Origin: Candidatus Uhrbacteria bacterium
GTDB taxonomy: Bacteria; Patescibacteriota; Patescibacteriia; UBA9934
Direction of reading: 5' to 3'
Assembly: GCA_943357745.1 (NCBI GenBank)
Contig: CALRGN010000005.1
Span: 1-32,931, forward strand
DNA: 32,931 nt
Both the position numbers and the translations under genes were made by a program. The notes beneath the pieces are model-generated. The model was not told the origin of the DNA and did no database searches. It worked only from the letters and a program-made list of their open reading frames with translations. Positions 13,257-19,530 of the stretch are shown piece after piece (positions within the stretch are counted from its first letter, which is position 1; every line of letters begins with the position of its first letter).

Positions 13257-15122
13257 ATGAAAACATCGAAATTGGATGGAGATTCCACGAACCAACAAGA
13301 AGCCCTTCTTGCGTTGCTGAGACAACACGCCCCCGAGGTCTTTAGTGAAAACAAGATCGACGTAAAGCAACTCCGCGCCACTTTGGGCGAGGAAGTTTTA
13401 GCTGATGCAGAGCGTTATGGTTTGAACTGGGCTGGCAAGATGGATTGTTTCCGAACAATTCAGGAGACCACAACGAACACCCTCAAGCCTGTCCGTGATG
13501 AGTCGGTAAACTTCGACAGTACCGAGAATCTTTTTATCGAAGGCGATAACCTAGAAGTTTTGAGGGTTCTTCAGAAGAGCTACTACGGCAAGGTAAAAAT
13601 GATTTACATCGACCCTCCCTACAACACGGGAAACGATTTTATTTACAACGACAAGTTTTCCCGAAACAAGCGGGAGTATCTCGAAGAGGTTGGAGCGATT
13701 GATAAAGAAGGCAACGTCGTGAATGCCGGGTTATACACGCAGAACACGAAAGATAGCGGACACTTCCATTCGGATTGGCTCAACATGATGTATCCGCGTT
13801 TGTTTTTGGCGAAGAATCTCCTTCGACAGGATGGAGTGATGTTTATTAGTATAGATGATAATGAAGTATACAATTTACGAACAGTCGTGAATGAGATTTT
13901 TGGAGAGGAGAATGTAGAAGAAATGATTTGGAGAAAAAGCGGAATTGGTCGTGATGGAAAAATGAAAAACACGACCACATTCAGAAATGATCATGAGTAT
14001 GTATTAGTTTGCCATAAATCTATTAAAGATTTGAACAAATCTTTTGAGATACCTAACTGGCAGAATCAATACGGAAATCCAGATTCTGATCCAAGAGGAA
14101 GTTATAAGGCCGGAAGCATTTCAAGAAAAGATGAGGCATCAAATCCACTGCATAAATTTTACTACACAGTAATATCTCCTGTCGGAAAAGAATTTACAAG
14201 GCAATTTGAGATTAGTAAGGATGATTTCCTTAGACTCGATGAGGATAAGAGAATTTATTGGGGTAAGAATAAAGATGCTGTACCAGCAGTCAAAATTTTT
14301 ACTGAAGAAAAACGAGAAGTCACCACGTCCTCGTTAATTGAGGATAAACTTTGCACCACAACAATTGGATCCAAGGAGCTCGACGAACTACTTAATATCG
14401 AAGGTTTAGGCATAACGGCTAGACCAAAGCCAGTTACGTTGATAAAAAAACTTACTCAAATTGGCGATGATAAAGATGGTATCGTGATAGATTTTTTCGC
14501 TGGTTCCGGAACGACTGCTCATGCCGTGATGCAACTCAACGCTGAGGACGGCGGCCACAGAAAATGGATCTGTATTCAGCTGCCAGAAAAATGTAAGCCA
14601 GAGACTGAAGCCGCAAAGGCTGGATTTGTTACGATTGCGGATATCGCAAAAGAACGTATTCGACGTGCGGGCAAAAAGATTAAGGAAGAAAATCCAGAAA
14701 AAACTTTTGATGTAGGATTTAAGCTATTCAAGATTGATGAGAGCAATTTCAAGATTTGGAATACCCACGTGACGAGCGTCGAACAATTGGAGCAACAGAT
14801 GATTGAGATGTTCGATAACGTCCAACCCGGTGCCACGAAAGAGGCGATGATGTACGAGTTGATTCTGAAGAGTGGCAAAGAGCTAAATGTTGCAATCGAA
14901 GAAAAGACTGCCGGGGGAGAAAAGTATTTTAGAGTAAATGACGGCTCTTTGGTGATTTGTCTTGCTGACAAGTTGAGCAAGGAGTTGTTTACAGGAATCC
15001 TCACCGAGAAACCAAAGAAGATTATCGTCCTCGACAAGTCTTTTGGGAATGACGATCAACTCAAGACGAATCTACTCCTCCAAGCTGAAGGTGCGGGAGT
15101 TGATGAGGTACGCGTGATTTAA
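13257..15122 (+). CDS. Type III restriction-modification methyltransferase subunit (Mod)
   Basis: This 621-residue N6-adenine DNA methyltransferase also supplies target recognition for the restriction complex. The N-terminus has the Mod-like ATLGEEVLADAERYGLNWAGK. Motif IV is IYIDPPYNTGNDF (DPPY at 119-122) and the AdoMet-binding motif I is DFFAGSGTTAHAV (about 412-424); this IV-before-I order is the beta class typical of Mod. The intervening stretch (about 220-400) is the target recognition domain; parts of its DNA are more AT-rich than the flanks (one row about 23% GC against about 53% near the 5' end), suggesting recombined specificity. It is the first gene of a four-gene operon; the next gene starts 2 nt after its stop. 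No SD is seen. Confidence 0.95.
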   Translation: MKTSKLDGDSTNQQEALLALLRQHAPEVFSENKIDVKQLRATLGEEVLADAERYGLNWAGKMDCFRTIQETTTNTLKPVRDESVNFDSTENLFIEGDNLEVLRVLQKSYYGKVKMIYIDPPYNTGNDFIYNDKFSRNKREYLEEVGAIDKEGNVVNAGLYTQNTKDSGHFHSDWLNMMYPRLFLAKNLLRQDGVMFISIDDNEVYNLRTVVNEIFGEENVEEMIWRKSGIGRDGKMKNTTTFRNDHEYVLVCHKSIKDLNKSFEIPNWQNQYGNPDSDPRGSYKAGSISRKDEASNPLHKFYYTVISPVGKEFTRQFEISKDDFLRLDEDKRIYWGKNKDAVPAVKIFTEEKREVTTSSLIEDKLCTTTIGSKELDELLNIEGLGITARPKPVTLIKKLTQIGDDKDGIVIDFFAGSGTTAHAVMQLNAEDGGHRKWICIQLPEKCKPETEAAKAGFVTIADIAKERIRRAGKKIKEENPEKTFDVGFKLFKIDESNFKIWNTHVTSVEQLEQQMIEMFDNVQPGATKEAMMYELILKSGKELNVAIEEKTAGGEKYFRVNDGSLVICLADKLSKELFTGILTEKPKKIIVLDKSFGNDDQLKTNLLLQAEGAGVDEVRVI

Positions 15123-15124
15123 GT

Positions 15125-15931
15125 ATGGCTATCCCAGAAGAAATTACAAGAACGATTAATAAATCCGACAGTGGATTTTTAATCGAGACTTCGAGCTTCT
15201 TGGAGTCTCAGGGCTGGGTTGTCACGATCAGTCCGTACTATCTTGATTCTTTTACGGGAAAGAGCCGAGAGATTGATTTGCTTGCTACGAAGACTGTCGA
15301 TGTGCTCTATGGTAGACGAATCGGTTCCGCGACTTACAATCTTATTATCGAATGTAAGGATATAAGGAATGGTGATCCAATGAATAACAATGCTGTTTTT
15401 TGGTTCAAGGATTCTGCTAAGTATGAAAAAGAGCTATCAGATTTTGTACAAAGGCATTTTTCAGACGATCCAAAAAATTGGGATCAGTTGAAAAACCTCC
15501 ATTATTTTGAAAACCCCGACACCGCCTTCTTGTTCGAGAGCGCTGACAATGGTGGTAAAGACCGTGAGAACGGTTCTGTTTTTAAGGCGCTTACTCAGGC
15601 GCTTCACTCGTTGATTTATTTTCGAGCAGAAGGTTATGGAAGCGTAAATACTACGGGCTACAACGTTCGGCACTACTTGCCTGTTGTTGTTTATCGAGAT
15701 ATTTCAAACGCTGTATATAAAGTGAACGACGATCGAATCGAGCAGATTAAAGAGAATTTTCTACTCGCAATGAATTACTCTTACAGTCACCCTAAGAAAG
15801 GAACGGCCATATCAGAATTCTTCCTTGTCGATGTGGTGAGACATGAGCTGCTCCAAGCGTTTTTAGACAAAATTTCGAGCGACCTGAAGAATTTACAGTC
15901 GTATATTCAGGATAAGGACGATCAAGTATGA
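15125..15931 (+). CDS. PD-(D/E)XK nuclease-like protein inserted between mod and res
   Basis: I do not recognise a named family for this 268-residue protein. The N-terminal ~80 residues show the restriction-endonuclease-fold pattern: E21 in helix 1 (GFLIETSSFLESQGW), D51 (SREIDLLA) and the E-x-K pair E76/K78 (LIIECKD), with spacing typical of Mrr-like PD-(D/E)XK nucleases. The remainder is not recognisable. It starts 2 nt after mod and overlaps res by 4 nt (ATGA), so it is translated with the restriction complex. Type III systems normally place mod and res next to each other, so this looks like a dedicated accessory. Possible roles are an extra cleavage or nicking subunit, or a fallback nuclease. 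Confidence 0.6.
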   Translation: MAIPEEITRTINKSDSGFLIETSSFLESQGWVVTISPYYLDSFTGKSREIDLLATKTVDVLYGRRIGSATYNLIIECKDIRNGDPMNNNAVFWFKDSAKYEKELSDFVQRHFSDDPKNWDQLKNLHYFENPDTAFLFESADNGGKDRENGSVFKALTQALHSLIYFRAEGYGSVNTTGYNVRHYLPVVVYRDISNAVYKVNDDRIEQIKENFLLAMNYSYSHPKKGTAISEFFLVDVVRHELLQAFLDKISSDLKNLQSYIQDKDDQV

Positions 15932-18597
15932 AATTAAAATTCGAAGCAAATCAGCAGTACCAAATCGATGCCGTAAAATCGGTGGTCGATATTTTTGAGG
16001 GCCAGCCGTTGGAGAGTGGTGATTTTGAGATGATGGTTGCTATACCGGCGGACAGACTTCAAATTGGAAGTGAGATTTTGGTTGGTAACAATCTCGTGTT
16101 GGAGCAGGAAACAATCCTGAAAAACATTCAAACCATCCAGGAACAAAACAAACTCCCCCTCAGCGATAGCGAGTTCAAGGATGGAATGAACTTCTCTACT
16201 GAAATGGAAACGGGTACGGGAAAGACATACGTCTATTTGCGAACCATACACGAACTCAATAAGAAGTACGGGTTCAAGAAGTTCGTAATTGTCGTGCCGA
16301 GTATCGCGATCAAGGAGGGTGTGATGAAAAACCTTGAAGTAACGAAGGAACATTTCGCGTTGCTGTTTGATAATCCGAAGATGGATTTTTACATTTACGA
16401 TTCCAAGAAAAGGGGTCAACTTCGGAATTTTGGTACAACGGATACGCTCCAAGTGCTCGTGATAAACATCGACTCGTTCACCAAGAAAGAAAGCAACATC
16501 ATTTACCAGGATTCAGATGATGGCATTCCGGTTCGCTACATTCAGGGTGTTTGCCCGGTGGTGATTGTTGATGAACCGCAGAACATGGAAACAGACGTGC
16601 GCAAGGTGGCAATCGCGAATTTAAATCCGCTTTGTACACTTCGGTATTCCGCGACGCATAAATATCCGTATCATCTGCTCTACAAACTCGATCCAGTACA
16701 GGCATATGACTTGGGTTTGGTGAAAAAGATTGAAGTCGACTCTGTTTTCTCCGAGGATGCGTACAACGACGCATATATTCGCGTTCTTGAAATCAAAAGC
16801 AAGAAGGCTAATATTACGGCGACCATCGAGATTGATAAAAGCGATGATTATGGCCTCCAGCGCAAGGAGGTGGTGATGAAGCCTGGAGACGACCTGTTTG
16901 ACCTCTCAGGGGAACGTGAGGCTTACAAGGACGGATTCGTGCTGGAATCCATCAGCGTTACGGACCAAACTGTGGGCTTCTCCAACGGAAATACGTTTGC
17001 GTGCGGTCAGAAGGATGAAAAGCTACAGGACGACATCATGAAATATCAGATTAAGAAAACGGTTGAAAATCATTTCGAGAAAGAAAAAAAGCTGAAAGAT
17101 AAGGGCGTGAAGGTGCTCTCCCTGTTTTTTATTGACCGCGTATCAAATTACCGAGAATACGTTGAGGCTGGCTGGGGTAAAGGAAAATTCGCACAATGGT
17201 TTGAAGAGGCATACAAAGAAATGCAGAAGAAGCCGCAGTACCAAGGCGTGCTTGAGCAAGATTGTGGCGACGTTCATGACGGTTATTTTGCACAGGATAA
17301 GAAGTCTGGCTCCTGGAAGGATTCGAGCGATGCAAAAGGAGGAGAAGGTGGAAAAACACAAGACGATGAACGGGCGTACGAGTTAATCATGAAGAACAAG
17401 GAGAAATTGTTAGACGTAAATACGCCACTACGTTTCATCTTCAGTCACTCCGCGCTTCGTGAAGGATGGGACAACCCGAACGTCTTCCAGATTTGTACGC
17501 TCAGTGAAACACAATCCGTCATGAAGAAGCGCCAAGAAATCGGACGCGGTCTTCGCTTGCCAGTGAATCAGGATGGCGAACGAATTTACGATTCGAACAT
17601 CAATGTGCTGACCGTCATTGCCAATGAAAGCTACGAACAGTTTGCGAAAGCCCTCCAGACAGAAATTGAGGAGGACTGCGGTGTTTCGTTTTCTGGTCGT
17701 ATCAAGAGCAAAGAAAAACGTCGGATAGTGAAGCTGAAGAAGGGATATGAACTCGATGAGAACTTTAAAGATTTGTGGAGCCGAATCAAACAGCGCACGC
17801 AGTATCACGTTGAGTACAGTACAAGAGACCTTATCGAAAATGCCTGGCGTGCGTGTTTGAATATCAACGTCTCGAAGCCAAGAATCAGCAACGTTCGCGT
17901 GCGCCTGAACATCAACGAGAAAGGTGTTAATACGGAAATTCGTTCAGTAAGTAGTCAGACGATCAAACAAGAGATTGGACTGGAGGCCATTCCTGACGCG
18001 ATTAACAACATTCAGCGGAAAACTCGGCTGACCAAACCGACGATATTTAAAATTCTCAAGGAATCGGATCATTTGAAAGATATCCTGGTTAATCCTCAGC
18101 AAGTCGTTGACGAGGTGACCATGAAAATCAACGAGACGCTCACTCGTATGGCAGTAGACGGCATCAAGTACGAAAAGATCGCTGGTGGCTTCTGGGAGAT
18201 GCAGCGATTCCAGAATGAAGAGCTGGAAGAGTATCTTGACCGTCTTATCAAGGTTCAGAATCAGCAGAGAACGCTTTACGACCACGTTATTACGGATTCT
18301 GCGGTGGAAGCGACCTTCGCCAAAGACTTGGAATCACGCGAGGATGTGAAGTTTTACTTCAAGCTCCCTCGATGGTTCAAGATCGAAACCCCACTTGGTG
18401 GCTACAATCCGGACTGGGCAATTGTTTTTGAGAATGACAAACGGGTGTACTTCGTTGCGGAAACCAAAAAAGAAGGCGAGATTCGAGAGAGTGAGGAGAT
18501 GAAAATCACCTGTGGTCGTGCACACTTCAAAGTGCTGGACGGTGTGCTATTTGAGCGAGTTGAGAGGCTGGAGGAGATTCAGATAAGTGGCTCTTGA
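15928..18597 (+). CDS. Type III restriction enzyme Res subunit (helicase-nuclease)
   Basis: In this 889-residue superfamily 2 translocase, Walker A is METGTGKT (93-100), motif II is VVIVDEPQ (DEPQ about 215-218) and motif III is SAT (241-243). Motif VI is in QEIGRGLRLPVN. Near the C-terminus PDWAIVFEND ... VAETKKEGE gives the PD-(D/E)XK endonuclease typical of Res (PD about 828, E845, K847). With Mod it hydrolyses ATP and cleaves DNA near unmethylated sites. All key motifs are intact, so the system looks functional. Its start overlaps the previous stop; the HEPN-like gene begins 10 nt after it. Confidence 0.95.
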   Translation: MKLKFEANQQYQIDAVKSVVDIFEGQPLESGDFEMMVAIPADRLQIGSEILVGNNLVLEQETILKNIQTIQEQNKLPLSDSEFKDGMNFSTEMETGTGKTYVYLRTIHELNKKYGFKKFVIVVPSIAIKEGVMKNLEVTKEHFALLFDNPKMDFYIYDSKKRGQLRNFGTTDTLQVLVINIDSFTKKESNIIYQDSDDGIPVRYIQGVCPVVIVDEPQNMETDVRKVAIANLNPLCTLRYSATHKYPYHLLYKLDPVQAYDLGLVKKIEVDSVFSEDAYNDAYIRVLEIKSKKANITATIEIDKSDDYGLQRKEVVMKPGDDLFDLSGEREAYKDGFVLESISVTDQTVGFSNGNTFACGQKDEKLQDDIMKYQIKKTVENHFEKEKKLKDKGVKVLSLFFIDRVSNYREYVEAGWGKGKFAQWFEEAYKEMQKKPQYQGVLEQDCGDVHDGYFAQDKKSGSWKDSSDAKGGEGGKTQDDERAYELIMKNKEKLLDVNTPLRFIFSHSALREGWDNPNVFQICTLSETQSVMKKRQEIGRGLRLPVNQDGERIYDSNINVLTVIANESYEQFAKALQTEIEEDCGVSFSGRIKSKEKRRIVKLKKGYELDENFKDLWSRIKQRTQYHVEYSTRDLIENAWRACLNINVSKPRISNVRVRLNINEKGVNTEIRSVSSQTIKQEIGLEAIPDAINNIQRKTRLTKPTIFKILKESDHLKDILVNPQQVVDEVTMKINETLTRMAVDGIKYEKIAGGFWEMQRFQNEELEEYLDRLIKVQNQQRTLYDHVITDSAVEATFAKDLESREDVKFYFKLPRWFKIETPLGGYNPDWAIVFENDKRVYFVAETKKEGEIRESEEMKITCGRAHFKVLDGVLFERVERLEEIQISGS

Positions 18598-18607
18598 ATA
18601 AAAACTT

Positions 18608-19372
18608 ATGGGTCAGGATGATCTGTACACTCCAGACGCGCAGCCAACCAACAATATGGACATGTCAATAAAATTCAATCCGCGGAAAATTAACCTAGAA
18701 CCAAGGGACATATTGCAGATATCAAACCTTGTCGACGGTGAGATTGTTCATGATCCGCTAGGTAGGCATAAGCCAGGTTCCCAGTTTGTAATCAACCACA
18801 GGGATATCGGTTCCAAGAAATTCCCCAAGGCAATGTTTCCGGCACCTAACCCCATCGAGTTCTATCTTCATTTAGTATTGCAAAGTATCGACGCTATCAG
18901 CCCCCTTGAGGTGGTAGTACAGCAAGACATCAAGCAGATAAATCGATTGATTCTGGAAGAAATTAGATTCTGTATTTTCGCGGTTGGCGCTCTTGAAGCT
19001 TTTGTGAATCAGATGATCCCAGCTACGTTCACCTATACCGATAATGGAAAGACTTTTTCTAAGAAAGACATCGAGAGGTGTTGGTCTCTGGAGGATAAAT
19101 TCAAAAAGATCATTCCCTTGATTGCAGGAGTTCGGGTCGTGGATGACACTAAAAAATGGTGTATTGTTACACTATTGATTGGTTTGCGGAATGACTTAAT
19201 TCACCTGAAGACGGCCTACCCAGTGGTTTCAGACTTCCAGTCTTACCAAGTCCTCTACCGCCGCTTGTTAGACAACAACTATGCCGAGTGCTTTGATGTC
19301 GTTAAGGCGATTATCAGTTCTATAGCTTCACCGACCCCATCTGTGAGCGGCGGTAATGGCCCCCTCCATTAG
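18608..19372 (+). CDS. HEPN-domain-like protein, last gene of the type III operon
   Basis: I recognise no named family for this 254-residue protein. Helical segments with AVGALEAFVNQMIP (about 115-128), KKDIERCWSLEDKFKKIIP (about 142-160) and GLRNDLIHLK (182-191) follow the HEPN pattern; RNDLIH (184-189) gives the Rx4H active-site motif of HEPN ribonucleases. The N-terminal ~75 residues are polar and unassigned. HEPN proteins often act as RNA-cleaving toxins or abortive effectors in defence loci. Its position 10 nt after res suggests co-expression. No antitoxin-like gene is adjacent. A later start at Met17 (18656) is possible. Could instead be a non-enzymatic scaffold. Confidence 0.6.
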   Translation: MGQDDLYTPDAQPTNNMDMSIKFNPRKINLEPRDILQISNLVDGEIVHDPLGRHKPGSQFVINHRDIGSKKFPKAMFPAPNPIEFYLHLVLQSIDAISPLEVVVQQDIKQINRLILEEIRFCIFAVGALEAFVNQMIPATFTYTDNGKTFSKKDIERCWSLEDKFKKIIPLIAGVRVVDDTKKWCIVTLLIGLRNDLIHLKTAYPVVSDFQSYQVLYRRLLDNNYAECFDVVKAIISSIASPTPSVSGGNGPLH

Positions 19373-19453: not shown

Positions 19454-19530
19454 TGGTGGGCGATAGAAGATTCGAACTTCTGACCTTCACAATGTCAATG
19501 TGACGCTCTAACCAACTGAGCTAATCGCCC
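19454..19530 (-). tRNA. tRNA-Val (GAC)
   Basis: This 77-nt cloverleaf has acceptor GGGCGAT/ATCGCCC, anticodon stem TCACA/TGTGA with loop TTGACAT (anticodon GAC), T loop TTCGAAT, discriminator A and encoded CCA. Confidence 0.96.

Follow-up and report, generated by a model that had tools for sequence, protein, structure and literature searches.

Type III restriction-modification (R-M) systems of the EcoP15I kind consist of one operon encoding Mod, with the DPPY and AdoMet motifs, and Res, with an SF2 helicase and a C-terminal PD-(D/E)XK nuclease. Type III operons with an extra gene are also known, as in the three-gene m4C systems, which carry an ATPase gene 5' of mod (PMC8259958). Layered defence has also been suggested: in 2013, the example of PrrC led to the proposal that, in 16 HEPN clades, the HEPN protein forms a second line next to R-M, directed at RNA (Anantharaman et al. 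2013, PMC3710099).

We analyzed a stretch of 32,931 nucleotides (the window) from a small Candidatus Uhrbacteria genome (650 kb, 45 contigs, 94% complete), in which an operon of the type III kind contains two further genes, hereafter gene 2 and gene 4. The operon shares all of the above features with the EcoP15I kind but has one cargo gene parting mod from res and another after res. With the m4C systems it has in common a type III operon plus an extra gene, whereas the extra gene of those systems lies upstream of mod, encodes a helicase-like ATPase, and is conserved (PMC8259958); the cargo of the window is nuclease-like, located between and after mod and res, and not conserved. The HEPN genes linked to R-M, such as PrrC of PrrC/EcoPrrI, resemble the window in that the R-M operon includes a gene for a probable HEPN RNase, proposed to serve as a second line of defence (PMC3710099). 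However, gene 4 has no ABC ATPase domain, PrrC belongs to a type I operon rather than a type III operon, and the gene 4 family (PHROG 17113), in contrast to the HEPN-R-M clades, was otherwise seen here as stand-alone. On the first two of these grounds, a PrrC-type R-M guardian (a HEPN protein with a fused ABC ATPase, encoded in a type I operon) was rejected as a description of gene 4.

Mod, Res, and the layout of the operon

The four genes lie on the same strand in the order mod, gene 2, res, and gene 4 (Table 1). The junctions, as read from the DNA, were TAA-gt-ATG between mod and gene 2 (2-nt gap), ATGA between gene 2 and res (4-nt overlap), and TGA, 10 nt, and ATG between res and gene 4 (10-nt gap), and both the open reading frames (ORFs) and the junctions match the arrangement given in an earlier note on this DNA. 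No convincing promoters or terminators were found inside the operon, their count not being above shuffle expectation.

Table 1. Features of the operon and its downstream flank, with positions in the window
Feature	Position	Strand	Description
mod	13257..15122	+	Type III DNA methyltransferase, 621 aa; DPPY and DFFAGSGTT motifs; N6_N4_Mtase PF01555 1.3e-32; PADLOC MTase_III 1.1e-198
gene 2 (mod-res slot)	15125..15931	+	268 aa; N-terminal PD-(D/E)XK-like domain, D51, E76-x-K78; outside known families; homologues L006, L126-L128
res	15928..18597	+	SF2 helicase-nuclease, 889 aa; METGTGKT, VDEPQN, C-terminal PD829...E845-T-K847; ResIII PF04851 4e-15; RE_endonuc PF19778 1e-34; PADLOC REase_III 7e-291
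gene 4 (downstream of res)	18608..19372	+	254 aa; probable HEPN RNase, R194-NDLI-H199; PHROG 17113 6e-7; PF18735 E=0.015, below cut-off
tRNA-Val gene	19454-19530	opposite to operon	82 nt downstream of operon; possible integration landmark

Mod and Res had strong matches to Pfam and PADLOC families (Table 1). Mod has the features of a type III methyltransferase, including the catalytic DPPY, and Res those of a type III restriction subunit, namely an SF2 helicase and a C-terminal PD-(D/E)XK nuclease. Five aligned Res homologues share, without change, the Walker A motif, DEPQ, and PD829, E845, and K847 of the nuclease. These results suggest that the window holds a complete type III R-M operon in which both mod and res look intact, in line with the earlier note. 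The usual adjacency of mod and then res was interrupted in the window by gene 2; such an intervening gene is no bar to type III membership, because it is usual in the same Res clade (24/28, see below). Of 379 genomes sampled from the phylum, only 14, counting that of the window, have a comparable Res, indicating a patchy distribution, as expected for a mobile R-M system.

The gene 2 and gene 4 families

Gene 2 had nothing above the cut-off in Pfam, NCBIfam, or PADLOC. The E..D..ExK pattern (E76/K78) pointed out earlier is present as E49-I-D51 and E76-C-K78, and such a pattern arises in 55% of shuffled gene 2 sequences. Profile comparison by hhalign matched gene 2 to UPF0102, a PD-(D/E)XK family, with a probability of 77% and a P of 2.1e-5, D51 and E76/K78 being in register. 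None of 200 column shuffles reached the score of 33.2, the highest giving 18.9; the UPF0102 alignment used was small (6 sequences). One relative of gene 2 was found in the 379-genome phylum sample (L006, 31-32% identity) and three more distant ones (L126-L128) in a sample of 198 genomes from another phylum, L127 and L128 being Bacteroidota. In the alignment, the N-terminal domain of the family keeps G30, D41, and R48-E49-x-D51, as well as E-x-K in most members. D51 was kept in 5/5 homologues, and ExK was clear in P0002, P0001, L127, and L126 (read by eye, the MAFFT columns being shifted). The homologue of L128 has ACK in place of ExK, with loss of the catalytic E, indicating that the members of this family need not all be active nucleases.

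The motif of gene 2 is credible because it is conserved in distant homologues and accompanied by the profile match to UPF0102, and these results suggest that gene 2 likely encodes a PD-(D/E)XK nuclease, as had been supposed from the motif. Gene 2 shares with UPF0102/YraN and similar PD-(D/E)XK proteins the E-I-D...E-x-K core, aligned in register, but is larger (268 aa), has an extra C-terminal part, and lies outside the curated families searched. Its profile had no relevant match among PDB sequences, and a search of plasmids, phages, and viral contigs gave no match to gene 2. Matches of Enterobacter and Priestia plasmids to a gene 2 relative (L010, L011; E 0.06-0.1) were set aside as too weak.

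Neither mod nor res was found beside any gene 2 relative (L006, L126-L128), although in L006 the contig runs for only about 0.8 kb beyond it. There (L006:9035-10433), a DUF4145 gene (PF13643, 1e-12) lies 10 nt upstream of the gene 2 relative, with no mod or res on the visible contig, and the two genes possibly form a two-gene defence pair. DUF4145 has been assigned to the HEPN superfamily (PMC3710099), and the direct adjacency of a gene 2 homologue to such a gene, in the same phylum, resembles the PD-(D/E)XK and HEPN content of the window, whereas no mod or res lies upstream in L006 and its contig soon ends downstream. In L126 (L126:1955-7617), the gene 2 relative is clustered with a KilA-N-looking gene and a 978-aa helicase-like gene, possibly as another defence island. 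A toxin-antitoxin reading of genes 2 and 4 was dropped, because the two genes are not adjacent and their relatives are unpaired except in L006, where the partner is a different HEPN-type gene (DUF4145).

Gene 4 carries an Rx4H motif (RNDLIH), of the Rx4-6H kind that HEPN proteins have near the C-terminal helix. The motif named in the earlier note thus stands, but its numbering (R184/H189) was off by ten, the actual residues being R194 and H199. Rx4H occurs in 23% of shuffled gene 4 sequences. Gene 4 and its relatives matched PHROG 17113, a phage-associated family to which PHROG assigns no function. When aligned, five members that are 20-25% identical to gene 4 all keep E130, N134, R194, and H199. 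The motif is credible because it is conserved in these distant homologues, and the conservation of the four residues matches the pattern of an active HEPN domain. The HEPN call is made at the level of the motif, because the Pfam match to the HEPN family PF18735 (RiboL-PSP-HEPN) was weak and the hhalign score against RiboL-PSP-HEPN members was within the shuffle range; the gene 4 profile had no relevant match among PDB sequences.

The frequency of Rx4H in shuffled sequences, together with the lack of a significant Pfam match and of an hhalign score above shuffles, is what would be seen if gene 4 encoded some other all-helical protein, not an RNase, with a chance Rx4H. We consider this unlikely, since five members of such low identity all retain R and H together with two other polar residues, and the weak Pfam match is itself to a HEPN family. 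The reading of gene 4 as a likely HEPN-fold protein and probable RNase is therefore kept, as first suggested.

Stand-alone relatives of gene 4 were identified in a CPR genome of the same phylum (L007), an Acinetobacter plasmid (L009), and two prophage-like contigs (L120 and L121). The last two were recovered by an alignment-based scan of viral contigs; a scan of viral contigs with the single gene 4 protein gave no match. In both (L120:4746-5504 and L121:4671-5432), the PHROG 17113 HEPN-like gene lies among tail genes and is likely a moron. The accessory genes had been thought tied to mod and res, a view contradicted by homologues without mod/res for both gene 4 (L007, L009, L120, L121) and gene 2 (L006, L126-L128). 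Both cargo families occur independently, which argues that genes 2 and 4 work without Mod and Res.

Gene content of the mod-res junction in related loci

We compared 93 Res loci, comprising 13 of the same phylum and the best 80 of at least 581 candidates from 84,980 species genomes. The loci were picked by their likeness to the Res of the window, so that the frequencies at this slot hold for its clade only, and cargo was counted on mechanical ORFs. Among the loci listed, operons whose Res is shorter than 950 aa and at least 50% identical to that of the window number 28, counting the window itself, and 24 of these hold at least one same-strand gene between mod and res. Further out such genes were rarer, with 4/16 at 43-48% Res identity and 3/13 below 43%. 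In the 37 cargo loci, 73 of 108 junctions were within 30 nt, and only 18 of these loci had every junction within 60 nt.

The slot genes were mostly singletons when clustered, and the cargo families were diverse and mostly defence-related. The families identified by Pfam included Schlafen/AlbA_2, AAA_21 with DUF4276, YhcG PDDEXK nuclease, BRO-N, KilA-N, GmrSD, Fic, Shedu, TIR, RhuM, HATPase (paraMORC-like) fused to a Ymh HEPN domain, AAA ATPase with subtilisin-like protease, and DNA methylases. No known family covers several of the slot proteins, among them that of gene 2. On the Res tree, cargo is gained or lost at least 15 times, and sister loci differ in cargo (L054/L057, L046/L052, and L073/L030). 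In particular, the slot of L054 holds a 104-aa gene and that of its close sister L057 holds YhcG, AAA, and DUF4276. Because such near-sister loci differ in cargo, the mod-res junction can be regarded as an exchangeable slot.

Several related loci deserve separate mention. L028 (L028:4722-11097), among the nearest relatives, has mod, a 261-aa gene without a family, res, and a DUF4268 protein, i.e., a four-gene layout like that of the window with unrelated cargo. In L030 (L030:708-8969), the slot holds genes for an AAA ATPase and a 922-aa subtilase-domain protein, the junctions measuring +3, +1, and -4 nt, as a candidate protease-based cargo module. Two others of the nearest relatives (L027:4913-5947 and L029:10018-11325) carry in the slot a pair of unassigned genes, one for a protein of 220/257 aa and one for a protein of 122/175 aa in which membrane segments are apparent; the two pairs look alike but are not linked by BLAST at 1e-4.

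Relatives of gene 2 or gene 4 were absent from all 93 related Res loci (BLASTP, E 0.001; 13 same-phylum loci and the best 80 of at least 581), and the gene set was seen in no other locus among them, so that the four-gene order did not recur. These observations bear on a dedicated four-component type III system, in which genes 2 and 4 would be subunits or obligate partners of Mod and Res in a layered model. The translational coupling of the four genes is in keeping with such a system, as is the frequent linkage of HEPN proteins to R-M, PrrC being kept inactive by PrrI (PMC3710099). Nevertheless, the absence of both genes from the related loci, the occurrence of their homologues apart from mod and res, and the variation of slot cargo between sister loci make it quite improbable, and by the earlier note's own criterion, homologues away from mod and res, its expanded four-gene type III system is refuted in the dedicated form.

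At the other extreme, genes 2 and 4 might be independent defences that share only the promoter and the mobility of the R-M system, with no regulatory link. Their stand-alone relatives in a plasmid, prophage, and chromosomes and the high diversity of unrelated slot cargo are consistent with such pure hitch-hiking. However, the cargo genes in the slot mostly share the direction of mod and res and are closely coupled to them, which suggests selection for position, such as for co-expression or a delay of res, and we therefore hold pure hitch-hiking to be a tentative and rather doubtful account.

Probable exchange of cargo and its possible meaning for defence

On balance, the locus is probably best explained as a complete and likely horizontally mobile type III R-M operon that carries exchangeable defence cargo, and not as a fixed four-part machine. 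Judged by family, Mod and Res would form a normal methylation and ATP-dependent cleavage complex. Gene 2, encoding a PD-(D/E)XK-like protein, and gene 4, encoding a probable HEPN RNase, would have been drawn from families that also stand alone and would be co-translated with the R-M genes, their coupled position arguing for co-expression. For what the cargo proteins catalyse, what triggers them, and how they may be linked to R-M in function, we infer a course in which the R-M enzyme would first cut unmodified DNA, the gene 2 protein may be another effector directed at DNA, and the HEPN protein of gene 4 would cleave RNA and so stall the cell if infection continues. A layered defence by genes 2 and 4 is thus possible as the work of co-expressed cargo.

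We further propose, giving it about an even chance, that the mod-res junction is a cargo bay in one type III R-M clade spread over many phyla, where abortive or nuclease effectors are swapped singly or in small sets and are translationally coupled, their action possibly being gated by the R-M system. The load in the window would then be a so far unseen, new PD-(D/E)XK family together with a PHROG 17113 HEPN-like protein. No description of this junction as a standing cargo slot in the clade was found in the literature searched, the scope of which excluded subscription papers and preprints, and this is not proof of novelty. If the mod-res junction is such a standing slot, new defence effectors could be found there at little cost. 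Such a slot would also make testable the question of whether exchangeable effectors are triggered by their R-M enzyme, as PrrC is, or share only its promoter.
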